This document shows positions 18,184-33,867 of a stretch of 64,000 nt of DNA, in pieces. The notes under the pieces were generated by a model. That model saw nothing but the letters and a program-made list of their open reading frames with translations. It was not told the origin of the DNA and made no database searches. The DNA is from Paucidesulfovibrio longus DSM 6739 (lineage in GTDB: Bacteria; Desulfobacterota; Desulfovibrionia; Desulfovibrionales; Desulfovibrionaceae): the NCBI RefSeq assembly GCF_000420485.1, contig NZ_ATVA01000003.1, forward strand, positions 1 through 64,000. The letters run 5' to 3'. Within the stretch, counting starts at the first letter, position 1. Each line of letters opens with the position of its first letter. The translations under genes were made by a program, and so were the position numbers.

Positions 18184-18226
18184 AAAAGGCCGCCTTCCGG
18201 AAACGGAGGGCGGCCTTGCCGTTTTA
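18184..18226. terminator. Bidirectional terminator between betaine operon and exported-protein cluster
   Basis: 12-base-pair stem GGCCGCCTTCCG / CGGAGGGCGGCC with a GAAA loop, with T-rich flanks on both strands. It serves the converging genes that end at 18163 and 18224. Confidence 0.8.
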
Positions 18227-19531
18227 TTCTCCTTCCGCCTTGCGGACCTTCTTGATCTTCCGGTCCACCTCCGAGCCGACATACGGGCAATAATCCATGC
18301 CCCCGAACCACGGCGAGCAGCGCACGGTGATCAGCAGCCCGTCGTCGCGGTAGCGAATCTCGTGCATGTCCTGGCGGTCGCCGCGCACCAGAATGTAGCC
18401 GCCCTGGCCGAAATCGAAATCCTGGATGCGCCTGATGCCGGACAGCTCTCCGGTCTTGTCGCCGGCCTCGAACCGCGCTTCCAGCTCGGCCCGGTGCGCG
18501 GCGAAGTCCCGCTCGATGGCCGCGGCGTCTCCCCGCGCGATGCTGATGTAGGTTTCATAAAGATCCTTGCCTTCCTCGTCGATGGTCCCCTCCACGAGCG
18601 CGGTGTATTTCCAGGTCAGGGTTTCAAGGCCCGTCTTCGGATTGCGCGCCTCGAAGAGCGGGTAGCGCTCATCGTCGGTCACGCTCCAGACGCGGGGATT
18701 GTCCCCCCGGAACATGGGCAGGGGAAACTCGCCGCGCAAGGGCATGAACCGCTCCAGATAGGCGGAATCGCCCCCTCTGAACGGCGGGGGAGGCGGTGTT
18801 TTGCGCTGGCCCGGCATCGGCGCGGACGCCGGTGCGGACGCCGATGCGGATGTCGATGCGGACGCCGGTGCGGATGTCGGTGCGGCTGCGGCTGGCGCGT
18901 CCTTTTTCGGCGCGGCCGCCGCGCCGCCGGTTCCCGCAGCTGGGTCGGAAGACGCTTGCGGCATGGCCGCCGGTTGCGGTTCGGCGGCTGCCTGGCCCGC
19001 CGGTTCCGTGGCCGCGACGCTTTTCGGAGCCTGAGCGGCCTCCGCCTGGTTTTGCTGCGCGCCCAGGTCCGCATCCAGGGGCAACACGCTCAGCCTGCGC
19101 CCCGTAAAGGCCGTGGGCACATCGCCGCACGCGCTCCAGGAGCCGCTGAGCTCGCCCGCCCCGAAATGAATCTCCACCTCGCCCCAATAGGCCTTGCCCT
19201 CGTGTGACGAGGCACAGGGCTTGCCGTCCTTTGGCGTCGCGCTCCAGATGGCGTTCAGCCGCGTCCCCTCCAGCCTGCCCTGAAAGCTGCCGTGACCGCC
19301 CGCGCCGAACGCGCCGCGCACGGTCCCGTCCGCGCCCTGGCGGAGCAGCATGTCCACCCAGTTCGTGCGCCAGACCCCGCCCACATTGCCGTCGGCGTCC
19401 CCGGCAAACGCGCCGCGCACCCCCATGAGACAGCCCGCCGACCACAACGAAACCGCAACAAGAAGCAACAGGCGCCCGGCGCGGGGGCGATCCTTGGTTC
19501 CGACCATACGGCGCACTCCATCTCGTTCCAT
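18224..19531 (-). CDS. Exported two-domain protein of unknown function (cluster protein A)
   Basis: 435 residues. ATG 19531 is preceded by GGAGA. An N-terminal hydrophobic segment (LLLLVAVSLWSAGCL, then AFA-GDA) is a signal peptide or weak lipobox. Residues about 50-155 form a glycine-rich domain (GGVWRTNWVDMLL, AYWGEVEIHFGAGELSGSW, FTGRRLSVL) with two cysteines, shared with the protein from 21886. An Ala/Pro/Ser linker runs from about 160 to 255. Residues about 258-420 form a second domain (GGDSAYLERFMP-GE-P-P, GLETLTWKY, FGQGGYILVRG, CSPWFGGMD) shared with the protein from 20850. I recognise neither domain. It is last in a three-gene minus-strand unit. Confidence 0.75.
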   Translation of the reverse strand: MERDGVRRMVGTKDRPRAGRLLLLVAVSLWSAGCLMGVRGAFAGDADGNVGGVWRTNWVDMLLRQGADGTVRGAFGAGGHGSFQGRLEGTRLNAIWSATPKDGKPCASSHEGKAYWGEVEIHFGAGELSGSWSACGDVPTAFTGRRLSVLPLDADLGAQQNQAEAAQAPKSVAATEPAGQAAAEPQPAAMPQASSDPAAGTGGAAAAPKKDAPAAAAPTSAPASASTSASASAPASAPMPGQRKTPPPPPFRGGDSAYLERFMPLRGEFPLPMFRGDNPRVWSVTDDERYPLFEARNPKTGLETLTWKYTALVEGTIDEEGKDLYETYISIARGDAAAIERDFAAHRAELEARFEAGDKTGELSGIRRIQDFDFGQGGYILVRGDRQDMHEIRYRDDGLLITVRCSPWFGGMDYCPYVGSEVDRKIKKVRKAEGE

Positions 19532-19596
19532 ATGAATCTCCGGCAACAGCGCTGTTCGTTTTCGATGCACGGGGGACAACCGACCGGCAATCCCGC

Positions 19597-20850
19597 CTAC
19601 TTGAGCTTCGCGGCCACGGCGGCGGCGGCCTTCTTGCCCACGTCCAGCCCCCCTGCCCAGGGCGAGGAGCGAATCTCGACCATGATCCCGCCCTTGTAGA
19701 AGATGATCGAGTGGTTCATTCCCCCGCTGCGCTTCGCGGCCATGACATGGCCCCCCTGCCCCAGCTTGAGGTCCGCTATGGTTTCGTAGTCGTTCAGGTT
19801 TCCGGCCTGCTGCATCTGCGTGATGAAGGCGCGGTTCTGCTCGTAGGACGTGCGGATCGCCTCGGGCGTGCCCCGATACAGATGCACGTAGACGTCGTAG
19901 CTGTATTCCTGCTCCGGATCCGTGGTCTGGCTCACGTGTGTATAATAGCTGTAGGTCAGTTCCTCGAATCCGGTATACTTGTCATGGGCATTGTAGTGCG
20001 GGAAAGGTTGCCCCCCGTCCGAAATAGTCCATTGCTTGTTGGGTTCGCCCGCCGCGTTCTTGGAGGGCGGCATGGGAATTTCTCCGGCTCCGGGCATGAG
20101 GCTCTCCAGGTAGGCCCGGTCGCCCCCGGCTGCCGGGGAAGCGGGCTTCGGGATCTGCTCCTCCAGCTTGGCGGCCACCTCCAGCAAGGTCCGACGCTGC
20201 TCGCGCAGGGAGGCCAGCTCCCGGTCCATGACTGCCACGAGCTTCTCGCTGAGATTCTTGACCACGTTCAGCTTGCGGGTCACCAACTCGATCTCGTCGT
20301 CCGCCTTGCCGTCGCCGGGATACCGCCACCAGCCCTTGGCCGAGCGCATCGGCGGCTGGTCGTCGTCGAACCGGCTCAGGGGCGCGCGCATGATCGCGCC
20401 CAGGTCGCCGAGATAGAGGCTGATGCGCCCGCCGGAGCGCAGGGCGTCGGCGTTCAGCCCGGCGAGCCTTGCCCGTTCCGTGGAGTTCGGCTGCCGCAGC
20501 ATGGAGCCGTAAAGCCCCGGATCGACCCAGAGGTTCTGCACGGTTTCCAGCGCGAGGTTGACCCCGTCCACCCAGCCGCCGGGCGCGCTGACCCTGCCGT
20601 ACACGTCCACGATGCCCTTCATGTAGACCTTGTAGGCGTTGTTCTGAAAATTGACCGTGCTCACGTGCCGGACGTTCTCGACCTCGTCGCGCATGGCCTG
20701 GAGTTCGTCGTGGGCCGCGCGCAGCTCTTCCGCGGCCTTGCGCAGGCGCAGCGCGGATTCCTTGTCCCCGTCCGGATTGAGCGAGGCCGCCGAAACGGGC
20801 AGCGCGGCGAGGCAAAGCAGCGCCAAGATGGTGATGATGCGTATCTTCAT
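19597..20850 (-). CDS. Exported coiled-coil protein of unknown function (cluster protein B)
   Basis: 417 residues. ATG 20850 has GGGGAAG upstream and a clear signal peptide follows (ITILALLCLAALPVSA-AS). Residues about 30-65 and 190-240 are heptad-rich helices (RLRKAAEELRAAHDELQAMRDEV). The C-terminal domain, about 250-410, is related to that of protein A: GGDRAYLESLMPGAGEIPMP, TGFEELTYSYYTHV, LGQGGHVMAAKRSGG, RSSPWAGGLD. It starts 13 bases after the stop of the upstream cluster gene. No known family is recognised. Confidence 0.75.
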   Translation of the reverse strand: MKIRIITILALLCLAALPVSAASLNPDGDKESALRLRKAAEELRAAHDELQAMRDEVENVRHVSTVNFQNNAYKVYMKGIVDVYGRVSAPGGWVDGVNLALETVQNLWVDPGLYGSMLRQPNSTERARLAGLNADALRSGGRISLYLGDLGAIMRAPLSRFDDDQPPMRSAKGWWRYPGDGKADDEIELVTRKLNVVKNLSEKLVAVMDRELASLREQRRTLLEVAAKLEEQIPKPASPAAGGDRAYLESLMPGAGEIPMPPSKNAAGEPNKQWTISDGGQPFPHYNAHDKYTGFEELTYSYYTHVSQTTDPEQEYSYDVYVHLYRGTPEAIRTSYEQNRAFITQMQQAGNLNDYETIADLKLGQGGHVMAAKRSGGMNHSIIFYKGGIMVEIRSSPWAGGLDVGKKAAAAVAAKLK

Positions 20851-20863
20851 GCTTCCCCCAGCG

Positions 20864-21886
20864 TCATCGGGCCTGAAGGACCAGTTTCGCAAGCTGGTCC
20901 GCGAGCCCGGCTTCCGGCGCGGAAACCCGCACCAGGGCCTGCGCCGTGCGGAACCAGAGCACGGAGCGGCCGTTCTCCCGCCCCCGGATCGCTCCGGGAG
21001 CCAAGTCCGGAGCCGGGGAAACCCCTTCCAGCCCCTCGCCCGCGGAGCTCTCCAGCATCTTCAGGGCGGGCTCCTGCCCGGTGAACACGCGCACGTCCAG
21101 CAGGGGGCCGCTTTCGTTCAGGGGCAGATAGGAGGCATAGGCCGTGCGGTAGGTCCAGCCCACGGGCAGGGCCTTTTCCGGGGCGCGGTCCAGCAGGGCG
21201 TCCGTTTCCCAGACCTTGCCGAGCAAGACGTTGTCCAGGGCCGTGTCCGGCGGAAGCAGGCTCGCGGGGTCCGCATGGGCGCTGCCGACCTGGAAGGAAT
21301 TGGGCATTTTCGGGAAGTCGGTCGGCGGCGATTCCGGGCCGGGGTCCACTGCGGGCTGCGCTCCGGGCGCTGATCCGGGGAGTGCGTCTTGCGCCGCGTC
21401 CGCCCGCAGGCCCGGCGCGGAAGGGTCCGGGGCGGAGGGAAGGGTCTTCCCGGCGGGCATGCCGATCTCCGCGTTCATGTCCAGCGGGCTCAGGCGGCGG
21501 CCCGTGAACGGTTTGTCCGGAGCCTGTCCGCAGGCCCCCCAGACGCCGCTGAGCTGCCCGGCTCCGTCGGCGAAATCCATGACCACCTCGCCCCAATAGG
21601 GGCTGCCCCAGCGGGGCTCGGCGCAACGGGTCTCTCCCTGGTCCGCGGCCCAGTTCGCCCGCAGCCGCTGCACCCGGACCGTGCCCGCGAAGCGGCCGTT
21701 CATTCCCGGACCATACACGCCGCGCACGCCCCCCTCGTAATCCATGCTGAACATCACGTCCTCCCAGCCTGTACGCCAGATGCCCCCGTAATTGTCCTCG
21801 TAGGGCGGCGACTCCGCATGGGCGGAAGCGGCCGGAAAAAGACAGAGAATGCCCGTCAGGACAAAGGACATGAAACGATTCTGCAT
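20864..21886 (-). CDS. Exported protein of unknown function (cluster protein C)
   Basis: 340 residues from ATG 21886 (a second ATG at 21871 is possible). Signal peptide SFVLTGILCLFPAASAHA. Residues about 33-145 are related to the N-terminal domain of protein A: GGIWRTGWEDVMF, GVYGPGMNGRFAGTV, YWGEVVMDFADGAGQLSGVW, PFTGRRLSPL, with both cysteines kept. A Pro/Ala linker follows, then about 120 residues (VGWTYRTAYASYLPL, LLDVRVFTGQEPALKML) that may be a diverged form of the second domain. It is first in the unit, so it is probably co-transcribed with B and A. Confidence 0.75.
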   Translation of the reverse strand: MQNRFMSFVLTGILCLFPAASAHAESPPYEDNYGGIWRTGWEDVMFSMDYEGGVRGVYGPGMNGRFAGTVRVQRLRANWAADQGETRCAEPRWGSPYWGEVVMDFADGAGQLSGVWGACGQAPDKPFTGRRLSPLDMNAEIGMPAGKTLPSAPDPSAPGLRADAAQDALPGSAPGAQPAVDPGPESPPTDFPKMPNSFQVGSAHADPASLLPPDTALDNVLLGKVWETDALLDRAPEKALPVGWTYRTAYASYLPLNESGPLLDVRVFTGQEPALKMLESSAGEGLEGVSPAPDLAPGAIRGRENGRSVLWFRTAQALVRVSAPEAGLADQLAKLVLQAR

Positions 21887-22117: not shown

Positions 22118-22975
22118 ATGATCAACAAGGAATATACATATTCGGTCTGGTGGAACCTGCTGCTGCTGACGACGGGCAGCGTGGTCTTCGCCATCGGGGC
22201 CCAGGGTGTGGCCGTGCACCACGAATTCATCACCGGCGGGCTGTTCGGCCTGGCGCTGTTCATCAGCTACTCCGCCAAAGCCCTGAGCGCGGGAATCTGG
22301 TACGCGCTGCTCAGCATTCCCCTGTTCGTGCTCGGCTGGGTCTACGTCAGCCGCCGTTTTTTCTGGTACTCGCTCTACTCGACCGTCATCACCATCCTCG
22401 CCTTCGACTTCATCAAGCTGGATTTCGGAGTGCACAACCAGCTGTATGCGGCCGTGGCCGCGGGGGTGATCTGCGGCACGGGGGGCGGCATCATGCTGCG
22501 GTCCCTGGGCTCGGCGGGCGGCCTGGACGTGCTCGCGGTGCTCCTGAACCGCAAGTACAACATCGGCGTGGGCAAGACCTACATCTTCTTCAACGGCCTG
22601 CTCTTCATGCTCATGCTCACGCGCATGGAGGCCGACCTGGTCATCGCCTCGCTGATCCTGGTCTTCATCTCCTCGCTGACCGTGGAGTACGTGCTTTCCA
22701 TGTTCTCGCAGCGAAAGATCGTCTTCATCATCGCGAAGGAGCCGGAAGAGCTGGCCCAGACCATCCTCAAGAAGCTGCGCATCGGCGCGACCTTCCTGCG
22801 GGGGCGCGGAGCCTACACGGGCTGCGACCGCGACATCCTCATGTCCGTGATCAACAACATCCAGCTCAAGCGCCTGGAAGAGATCGTCTTCACGCACGAC
22901 GCCGGAGCCCTGTTCATCGTGGAGAACACCTTCAACGTGCTCGGAGCCAGCTTCTCGCGCCGCAAGATCTACTAG
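22118..22975 (+). CDS. YitT-family membrane protein
   Basis: 285 residues with GGGGAGG before ATG. Residues 1-200 form five or six membrane helices with the family motifs TTGSVVFAIGAQGVAVHHEFITGG and GTGGGIMLRSLGSAGGLDV. Residues about 205-285 form a cytoplasmic DUF2179 domain (FIIAKEPEELAQTILKKL, GAYTGCDRDILMSVINN, DAGALFIVENTFNVLG). The function of the family is unknown. Confidence 0.9.
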   Translation: MINKEYTYSVWWNLLLLTTGSVVFAIGAQGVAVHHEFITGGLFGLALFISYSAKALSAGIWYALLSIPLFVLGWVYVSRRFFWYSLYSTVITILAFDFIKLDFGVHNQLYAAVAAGVICGTGGGIMLRSLGSAGGLDVLAVLLNRKYNIGVGKTYIFFNGLLFMLMLTRMEADLVIASLILVFISSLTVEYVLSMFSQRKIVFIIAKEPEELAQTILKKLRIGATFLRGRGAYTGCDRDILMSVINNIQLKRLEEIVFTHDAGALFIVENTFNVLGASFSRRKIY

Positions 22976-33562: not shown

Positions 33563-33867
33563 GACTTGTCCTCGCGTTCGCGCCTACCGAAATAACGGAT
33601 TGCCGGTGGTCGCCGACTTCCGACTCGGCACGCATACAAGGTGTCGGGTGGGGTGAGGAAAGCGCAGGTTTAGCTCCCCGGATGGGGCGGCGACGCCTCG
33701 GTGAACTGCGGACCGGAGCGTTCTCGCTACCACAACGCCGCGCGACCGGCAAGAGCGCGCCGGAAGCTCGGCTATTGACCGCCACGCCTGAATTCAGCTA
33801 ACCAGACGGAACGGAAACCACCATATTTCCCGACCTGTTACCTACCCAACCCCAGCACGAGGCAACC
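33563..33867. other. Intergenic region between DUF2087 gene and ppnP
   Basis: 305 bases with no convincing gene, separating divergently read genes. It must hold the promoters of both, but I could not pick out a clear -35/-10 pair. Confidence 0.4.

Follow-up and report, generated by a model that had tools for sequence, protein, structure and literature searches.

A candidate two-protein extracytoplasmic recognition unit and a chimeric third protein encoded in Paucidesulfovibrio longus DSM 6739

Introduction

The described proteins that stand closest to those considered here are the sensor domain of PknH, the alpha-beta sandwich proteins TM1622, DcrB and PA1624, TiME, the avidins and RseB/MucB; TM1622 is placed in the Mog1p/PsbP-like fold. 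The subject of this report is a block of three adjacent genes, referred to as C, B and A, in a stretch of 64,000 nucleotides from Paucidesulfovibrio longus DSM 6739 (contig NZ_ATVA01000003.1, positions 1 to 64,000), henceforth the window. A sequence-only reading of the block, made before the present analysis, had described it as a cluster of exported proteins built by shuffling two unrecognised domains.

For the PknH sensor, a cleft has been described that presumably accommodates a small molecule (PMC3601408). DcrB, according to PMC7716261, is anchored in the membrane, faces the periplasm and belongs to the functionally diverse Mog1p/PsbP group, and PA1624 is presented there as a two-domain periplasmic protein with a Mog1p/PsbP-like fold in its N-terminal domain and no known function. 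TiME is described in PMC11434571 as a secretion tube and a possible two-way channel in the mycobacterial outer envelope.

Here, structure models, sequence comparisons and genome surveys are combined for the three proteins. C models as an avidin-type barrel joined by an Ala/Pro-rich linker to a domain with the fold of the PknH sensor, B carries a helical region followed by a domain of the same fold, and A combines a barrel of the C type with a C-terminal domain of the B type.

Results

Modelled folds of C and B

The AlphaFold2 model of C was obtained from an alignment of 9 rows (mean predicted local distance difference test score, pLDDT, 75.1; predicted template modelling score, pTM, 0.52) and that of B from an alignment of 3 rows (mean pLDDT 59.9, pTM 0.42). 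Eight strands over residues 35–134 and a strand/helix sandwich over residues 203–340 make up the model of C, while in B residues 26–231 are mostly helical and residues 244–417 form a sandwich with its elements in the same order as in C (three strands, helix, strands, helix). When compared with known structures by VIA-align, the sandwich of C (203–340) matched the PknH sensor 4esq at Z 11.5 and a root-mean-square deviation (rmsd) of 3.1 over 131 aligned residues, and that of B (244–417) matched the same chain at Z 13.5 and rmsd 3.2 over 154 residues. TiME (7cu8) ties with 4esq, at Z 11.1 for C and 12.6 for B. For C, TM1622 (1vr8) was also matched (Z 9.4, rmsd 3.5 over 112 residues, Foldseek probability 1.00), and the one sign of DcrB (6e8a) was a Foldseek entry for B at E 0.46. 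In the models, which are of moderate confidence for C and low confidence for B, the C-terminal domains of the two proteins thus share one fold, that of the PknH sensor and perhaps of TM1622.

The N-terminal domain of C is modelled as an avidin-type eight-stranded barrel. Among the 50 VIA-align rows listed for C, 40 are avidin-type, with Z 9.2–10.2 over about 90–100 aligned residues; the rmsd is 2.2–2.8 in 27 of these rows and 3.2–6.9 in the other 13. The avidins are equalled by designed barrels (6czj, 8ah9, 6czi) and by a quinohemoprotein amine dehydrogenase domain (1jmx), and the avidin match is therefore to be read as a match of fold only.

Domains shared between the three proteins

Sequence comparison confirmed that the N-terminal domain is common to A and C (score 229, z 37, reached by 0 of 1000 shuffles; blastp E 1.5e-30) and that A and B have a C-terminal domain in common (score 253, z 49, 0 of 1000 shuffles; blastp E 4.4e-28), as the sequence-only reading had stated. 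That reading had limited the second domain to A and B, which no longer holds, as C carries the same fold in its model and is joined to the other two by a sequence bridge. The bridge is formed by the homologue of B in G537, a genome from another genus of the family. The C-terminal domain of this protein is related to that of C (z 8.4) and of the C homologue C2 (z 10.8; 0 of 1000 shuffles for each), and its scores reach z 3.2 against B (8 of 1000 shuffles), z 5.3 against the B homologue B2 (1 of 1000) and z 2.8 against A (20 of 1000). Profile comparison by hhalign gave P 3.7e-5 for the G537 domain against the C type, while against the A/B type P was 1.7e-3 and the match spanned 20 columns; the A/B type compared with a set including the G537 domain gave P 0.0033 (probability 9.7%). 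Because the modelled folds and this bridge agree, A, B and C probably all carry one kind of C-terminal domain. Neither C-terminal domain of the G537 pair matched a Pfam sensor domain at E up to 1.

Several details of the sequence-only reading were refined. Its C-terminal motif is corrected to R-x-SPW-x-GG (RCSPWFGG in A, RSSPWAGG in B). The two cysteines that it described as conserved in the N-terminal domain are found in eight of nine aligned copies and are both absent from the ninth. For the first half of B, the low-confidence model predicts several helices in place of the single coiled coil proposed. The Ala/Pro linkers of A and C were borne out (54% and 41% Ala+Pro), as were the common direction of the three genes and the gaps of 13 and 65 bases between them.

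A further stretch of note lies in the helical region of B, where FDDD..P.RSAK.WWR...DG..DD.IEL.TRK...NLSE is nearly invariant across all three homologues. The helical half of B is better conserved than its C-terminal domain, and the conserved stretch suggests a binding site of its own. Cysteine is absent from the C-terminal domain of C and from mature B; the pair Cys405/Cys415 occurs in the C-terminal domain of A and not in that of B.

Distribution and history of the genes

Some of the initial genome searches scored only part of the candidates, and relatives may have been missed. A profile of the whole of B, run over 348 genomes of the class with a limit of E 0.001, picked up the protein in three: the own genome, G147 (same genus) and G537. 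The same profile gave matches in 4 of 288 genomes of the family at E up to 0.01; the fourth, in G181, is a chance match (15.7 bits, antisense to a 682-residue frame). In a second genome collection, B alone gave no match and the whole-B profile gave only the G537 record JAHJKV010000234.1. In a phylum sample of 345 genomes, the profile of the A/B C-terminal domain matched the own genome alone. The profile of the C-type domain matched 6 of 149 genomes in a family sample; the matches in the own genome, G147 and G537 are taken as real, and those in G016 (a stop inside), G547 (antisense to a permease-like frame) and G580 (within a frame resembling a metallo-hydrolase) were rejected as chance, the products being judged by eye. 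No further copy of A, of the A/B C-terminal domain or of the C-type domain was found in the own genome at the thresholds used, nor was a further barrel copy (12 of 16 candidates scored in one search, 25 of 44 in another).

C lies directly before B in all three genomes found to hold B, which represent two kinds of genomic surroundings; the genes are separated by 13 and 8 bases in two of them and overlap by ATGA in the third. C and B thus occur together, and a fixed three-gene system is not supported, A being found in one of the three B-holding genomes. G147 encodes C (54% identical) and B (62%) at the same place as in the window, between proX and yitT; the two genes are 8 bases apart there, and A was not found. 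In G199 proX and yitT lie 424 bases apart within one contig. No DNA match to the three genes was found in this interval, and by its proX (90% against 82%) and yitT (89% against 76%) G199 stands nearer to G147 than does the window, so that C and B were probably present in the common ancestor and lost in G199.

The barrel of A branches before the split of C and C2 (support 0.978 for C with C2), and the C-terminal domain of A branches before that of B and B2 (support only 0.565). These branching orders make it probable that A arose early and was later lost from G147.

The G537 pair lies in other surroundings, next to a methyltransferase-like gene and an ATP-binding cassette (ABC) transporter of the branched-chain-amino-acid type (both judged by eye), and its two genes overlap by ATGA. 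The C homologue (L033 941–2002, JAHJKV010000234.1) has kept its C-terminal domain (z 17–20), whereas its N-terminal domain of about 135 residues is unlike that of C (z 0.2, 360 of 1000 shuffles); the helical half of B is kept (z 42). At the level of sequence, a module exchange is seen directly here, and the module shuffling claimed from the window alone finds its counterpart in this different N-terminal domain. The G537 head gave no convincing match in Pfam. Its DcrB-like look, judged by eye, is not accompanied by a sequence link to the C-terminal domain of C (88 of 1000 shuffles) or to the last domain of a G357 protein described below (818 of 1000).

The barrel domain in other proteins

A profile made from three barrels matched 7 of 345 genomes of the phylum sample at E up to 0.01, including the own genome; the matches are strong in G295, G357 and G395, moderate in G402 (2e-4) and weak in G298 and G438. 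The last two were rejected as chance, that of G438 lying inside an acyl-CoA-dehydrogenase-like frame and that of G298 containing a stop. With a nine-row profile and a limit of E 0.001, 7 of the 199 genomes in an order sample were matched, the own genome and G147 among them. Barrels occur in tandem in G395 and G295 and alone or nearly alone in some further proteins. The domain recurs in exported-looking proteins (export judged by eye), as would be expected of a portable head.

The cysteine count given above refers to the nine-row alignment, which excludes the more distant copies of G036, G067, G093, G102 and G111. The presence or absence of the two cysteines as a pair fits a disulfide. In the barrels of G036 and G093 the pair is not in the same places, by eye. 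A caspase-like protein of G111 (L037 472–1791; judged by eye) ends in a barrel in which the cysteine pair is likewise not evident by eye.

A 984-residue protein of G357 (L011 34–2988) consists of a TPR-like region below the Pfam cut-off, a barrel with paired cysteines, a linker and a further domain. This protein perhaps unites the C and B modules in one polypeptide. Its last domain has a PsbP/DcrB-like look, by eye, and no significant sequence link to the C-terminal domain of C (103 of 1000 shuffles).

Searches of sequence and structure libraries

Pfam searches were run at E up to 10, at which setting the HMMER filters discard most matches above about 0.1. For A, B and C, neither Pfam nor NCBIfam, PHROGs or PADLOC gave a convincing match; what was returned was due to chance or low complexity, save for phrog_6057, a phage protein family whose function is not known, which matched residues 294–348 of B weakly (E 0.0028). 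Searches of Protein Data Bank (PDB) sequences gave no convincing match for the barrel profile at E up to 10, nor for the A/B C-terminal domain or the G537 head; the C-type domain profile matched two engineered proteins, 4ney and 4nez, at E about 0.002. Plasmid and phage records searched with B, without queries from A or C, yielded no match, a single scan of IMG/VR with two peptide patterns yielded no B relative, and a viral fold library yielded none at E < 0.001. A literature search on avidin-like barrels returned no description of such a barrel, which is no proof of absence. The description of the two domains as unrecognised therefore holds for sequence libraries; in the models both folds can be recognised, as an avidin-type barrel and as an alpha-beta sandwich of the PknH sensor/TM1622 type. 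No strong match of both domains to one well-described family was found.

Export signals and surroundings of the block

The features of the locus are collected in Table 1. The N-termini of A, B and C each show a hydrophobic, signal-peptide-like stretch followed by an A-x-A-type site (judged by eye), in agreement with the signal peptides noted from the sequence. Cys34 of A, in S-A-G-C, lies inside the signal stretch and might provide a lipid anchor for this protein. No anchor, autotransporter or sorting sequence was seen by eye at the three C-termini. The host is supposed to possess an outer membrane, and hence a periplasm.

Table 1 Features of the C-B-A block and their positions in the window.
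Feature	Position	Strand	Residues or size	Remarks
Gene C: signal peptide, avidin-type barrel, Ala/Pro linker, PknH/PsbP-type domain	20864..21886	-	340 aa	start possibly GTG 21910
C N-terminal barrel domain	21485..21787	-	about 34-134	with Cys88 and Cys119
C Ala/Pro-rich linker	21296..21478	-	137-197 (61 residues)	41% Ala+Pro; analyst's cut
C C-terminal domain, PknH-sensor/TM1622-like	20867..21295	-	198-340	fold match 203-340
Gene B: signal peptide, helical region, PknH/PsbP-type domain	19597..20850	-	417 aa	
B helical region	20158..20775	-	26-231	
B C-terminal domain, PknH-sensor-like fold	19600..20121	-	244-417	
Gene A: C-type barrel and B-type C-terminal domain (chimera)	18224..19531	-	435 aa	
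A N-terminal barrel domain	19052..19387	-	about 49-160	by homology to C
A Ala/Pro-rich linker	18776..19051	-	92 residues	54% Ala+Pro; analyst's cut
A C-terminal domain	18227..18775	-	253-435	by homology to B; Cys405/Cys415 pair
Hairpin, terminator-like, separating A from the convergent proX gene	18186..18217	.	14 pairs	

Transcription runs in the order C, B, A on the minus strand, with the 13-base gap between C and B and the 65-base gap between B and A. The alternative start of C is in frame and is preceded by the Shine-Dalgarno-like GGGAGGGGG. The gene convergent with A is of the proX type, from an ABC transporter of the glycine-betaine type, and the YitT gene, divergent from C, starts at 22118. 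Pfam domains found in the seven scanned neighbour genes are ABC_tran with CBS, BPD_transp_1, OpuAC, YitT, DUF401 and those of two GGDEF proteins. The block has a G+C content of 67.6% against 63.8% in the window, and G+C at third codon positions is 0.82–0.88 in its genes against 0.86–0.93 in neighbour genes. As to signs of a mobile island, there is no tRNA gene nearby and no integrase among the seven scanned neighbours. Elsewhere in the window, positions 33662–33715 on the minus strand match the Rfam family COG3860 RNA, a cis-regulatory family, at 73.1 bits (gathering threshold 42.5).

Discussion

We tentatively propose, giving it somewhat less than an even chance, that C and B form a rare two-protein extracytoplasmic recognition unit to which A adds an extra chimeric subunit. 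The barrel would serve as a non-enzymatic head, with one disulfide, that binds a ligand or a surface; the sandwich domains would couple C and B to each other or to a shared envelope partner; and the helical region of B may be the scaffold or effector end. With a C-type head on a B-type tail, A could recruit the C-type head in the place of B or compete with both proteins. More doubtful is the wider proposal of a modular recognition system, in which a PknH-type coupling domain is held by a co-inherited pair, an exchangeable head is set against a conserved helical region, and the chimera re-routes the complex or competes for it.

A number of observations weigh against the proposed unit. The block holds no gene for a partner, receptor or enzyme. 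Both alignments behind the models are shallow, the model of B is poor and the fold of A is taken from homology only. A shared fold shows no function, and contact between the proteins is something we infer. Compared directly, the C-terminal domain of C scores at chance level against those of A and B (699 and 947 of 1000 shuffles do as well), comparison of the C-type and A/B-type profiles leaving out G537 is weak (P 0.029), and the sequence link between the two types comes from one metagenome-assembled genome, G537. The genes have a narrow spread, so their conservation says little, and in G199 the interval from proX to yitT gave no match at the DNA level to any of the three genes, nor was B found elsewhere in that genome, which is 89% complete. 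Finally, the whole-chain Foldseek search of C placed RseB, not PknH, in the first eight PDB rows (best E 2.0e-4, 346 alignment columns).

This last result is what speaks for a sensor of envelope stress of the RseB kind, in which a periplasmic protein of two domains gates an anti-sigma factor, and RseB is also present further down among the Foldseek matches of B (E 0.38). The RseB rows of C have template modelling scores (TM-scores) of at most 0.23 by query length and an rmsd above 15 Å (0.23 and 17.3 Å in the best row), however, and neither a Pfam or NCBIfam match of A, B or C to MucB/RseB nor a sigma/anti-sigma pair among the seven scanned neighbours was found, so that we consider such a sensor very unlikely. 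The absence of an RseB chain from the 50 VIA-align rows listed for C does not exclude RseB. The abundance of avidin-type proteins in those same rows, and their Z scores, could be taken to mean that the barrel is a true avidin-like binder of biotin or a similar small molecule, and that the cluster scavenges a cofactor. This appears highly improbable, given that the designed barrels and 1jmx tie with the avidins as a match of fold only, that the PDB sequence-profile search returned no avidin at E up to 10 and that Pfam gave no avidin match.

The same proteins might instead form an adhesin or a cell-surface attachment unit rather than a soluble periplasmic one. Surface proteins often have globular heads joined by Ala/Pro stalks, and the cysteine in the signal stretch of A could carry a lipid; the C-termini are nevertheless free of any anchor, autotransporter or sorting sequence recognisable by eye and no such family was matched, which leaves this explanation quite unlikely. 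Of more substance, if still unlikely in our estimate, is the view that these are ordinary side-by-side paralogues from tandem duplication, with no joint action, and that A is a by-product of recombination. The halves of A match the N-terminal half of C and the C-terminal half of B, as recombination between neighbours would give, A was found in one of three B-holding genomes, and G199 has the two flanking genes with no block in between. Against this stand the branching of the barrel of A before C and C2 (0.978), by which A is probably old with its open frame kept, and the adjacency of C and B, which is maintained across two genera and two surroundings.

If the proposed recognition unit of C and B is correct, the block would be a compact natural example of head, linker and coupling modules swapped between neighbouring envelope-protein genes, and PknH-sensor-like domains would occur in soluble exported proteins without a kinase. 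The unnamed avidin-type barrel with its cysteine pair, recurring in several exported proteins, merits a family entry.

Comparison with known systems

With RseB/MucB, C would share a two-domain periplasmic build, and RseB chains supply the first eight Foldseek rows for C; low TM-scores, the lack of a family match and the lack of a sigma/anti-sigma gene among the seven neighbours set them apart. The likeness to avidin and streptavidin lies in the eight-stranded antiparallel barrel of the C model, although no sequence relation is detectable and the C-type barrel has a conserved cysteine pair of its own. TM1622, DcrB and PA1624 have an alpha-beta sandwich, as do the modelled C-terminal domains, but there it is combined with other partner domains, no sequence match is found, and B and C are without the lipid-anchor cysteine, of which A has a possible one.

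The PknH sensor (4esq) resembles the modelled C-terminal domains of C and B in fold, with 131 and 154 residues aligned of a 194-residue chain. A, B and C differ from PknH in having neither a kinase nor a membrane segment, and they show no Pfam sensor-domain match. Two disulfides are described for PknH (PMC3601408), compared with no cysteine in the C-terminal domain of C or in mature B and one pair in that of A. By analogy, the likenesses to PknH, DcrB and TiME would point, without singling out one function, to the envelope.

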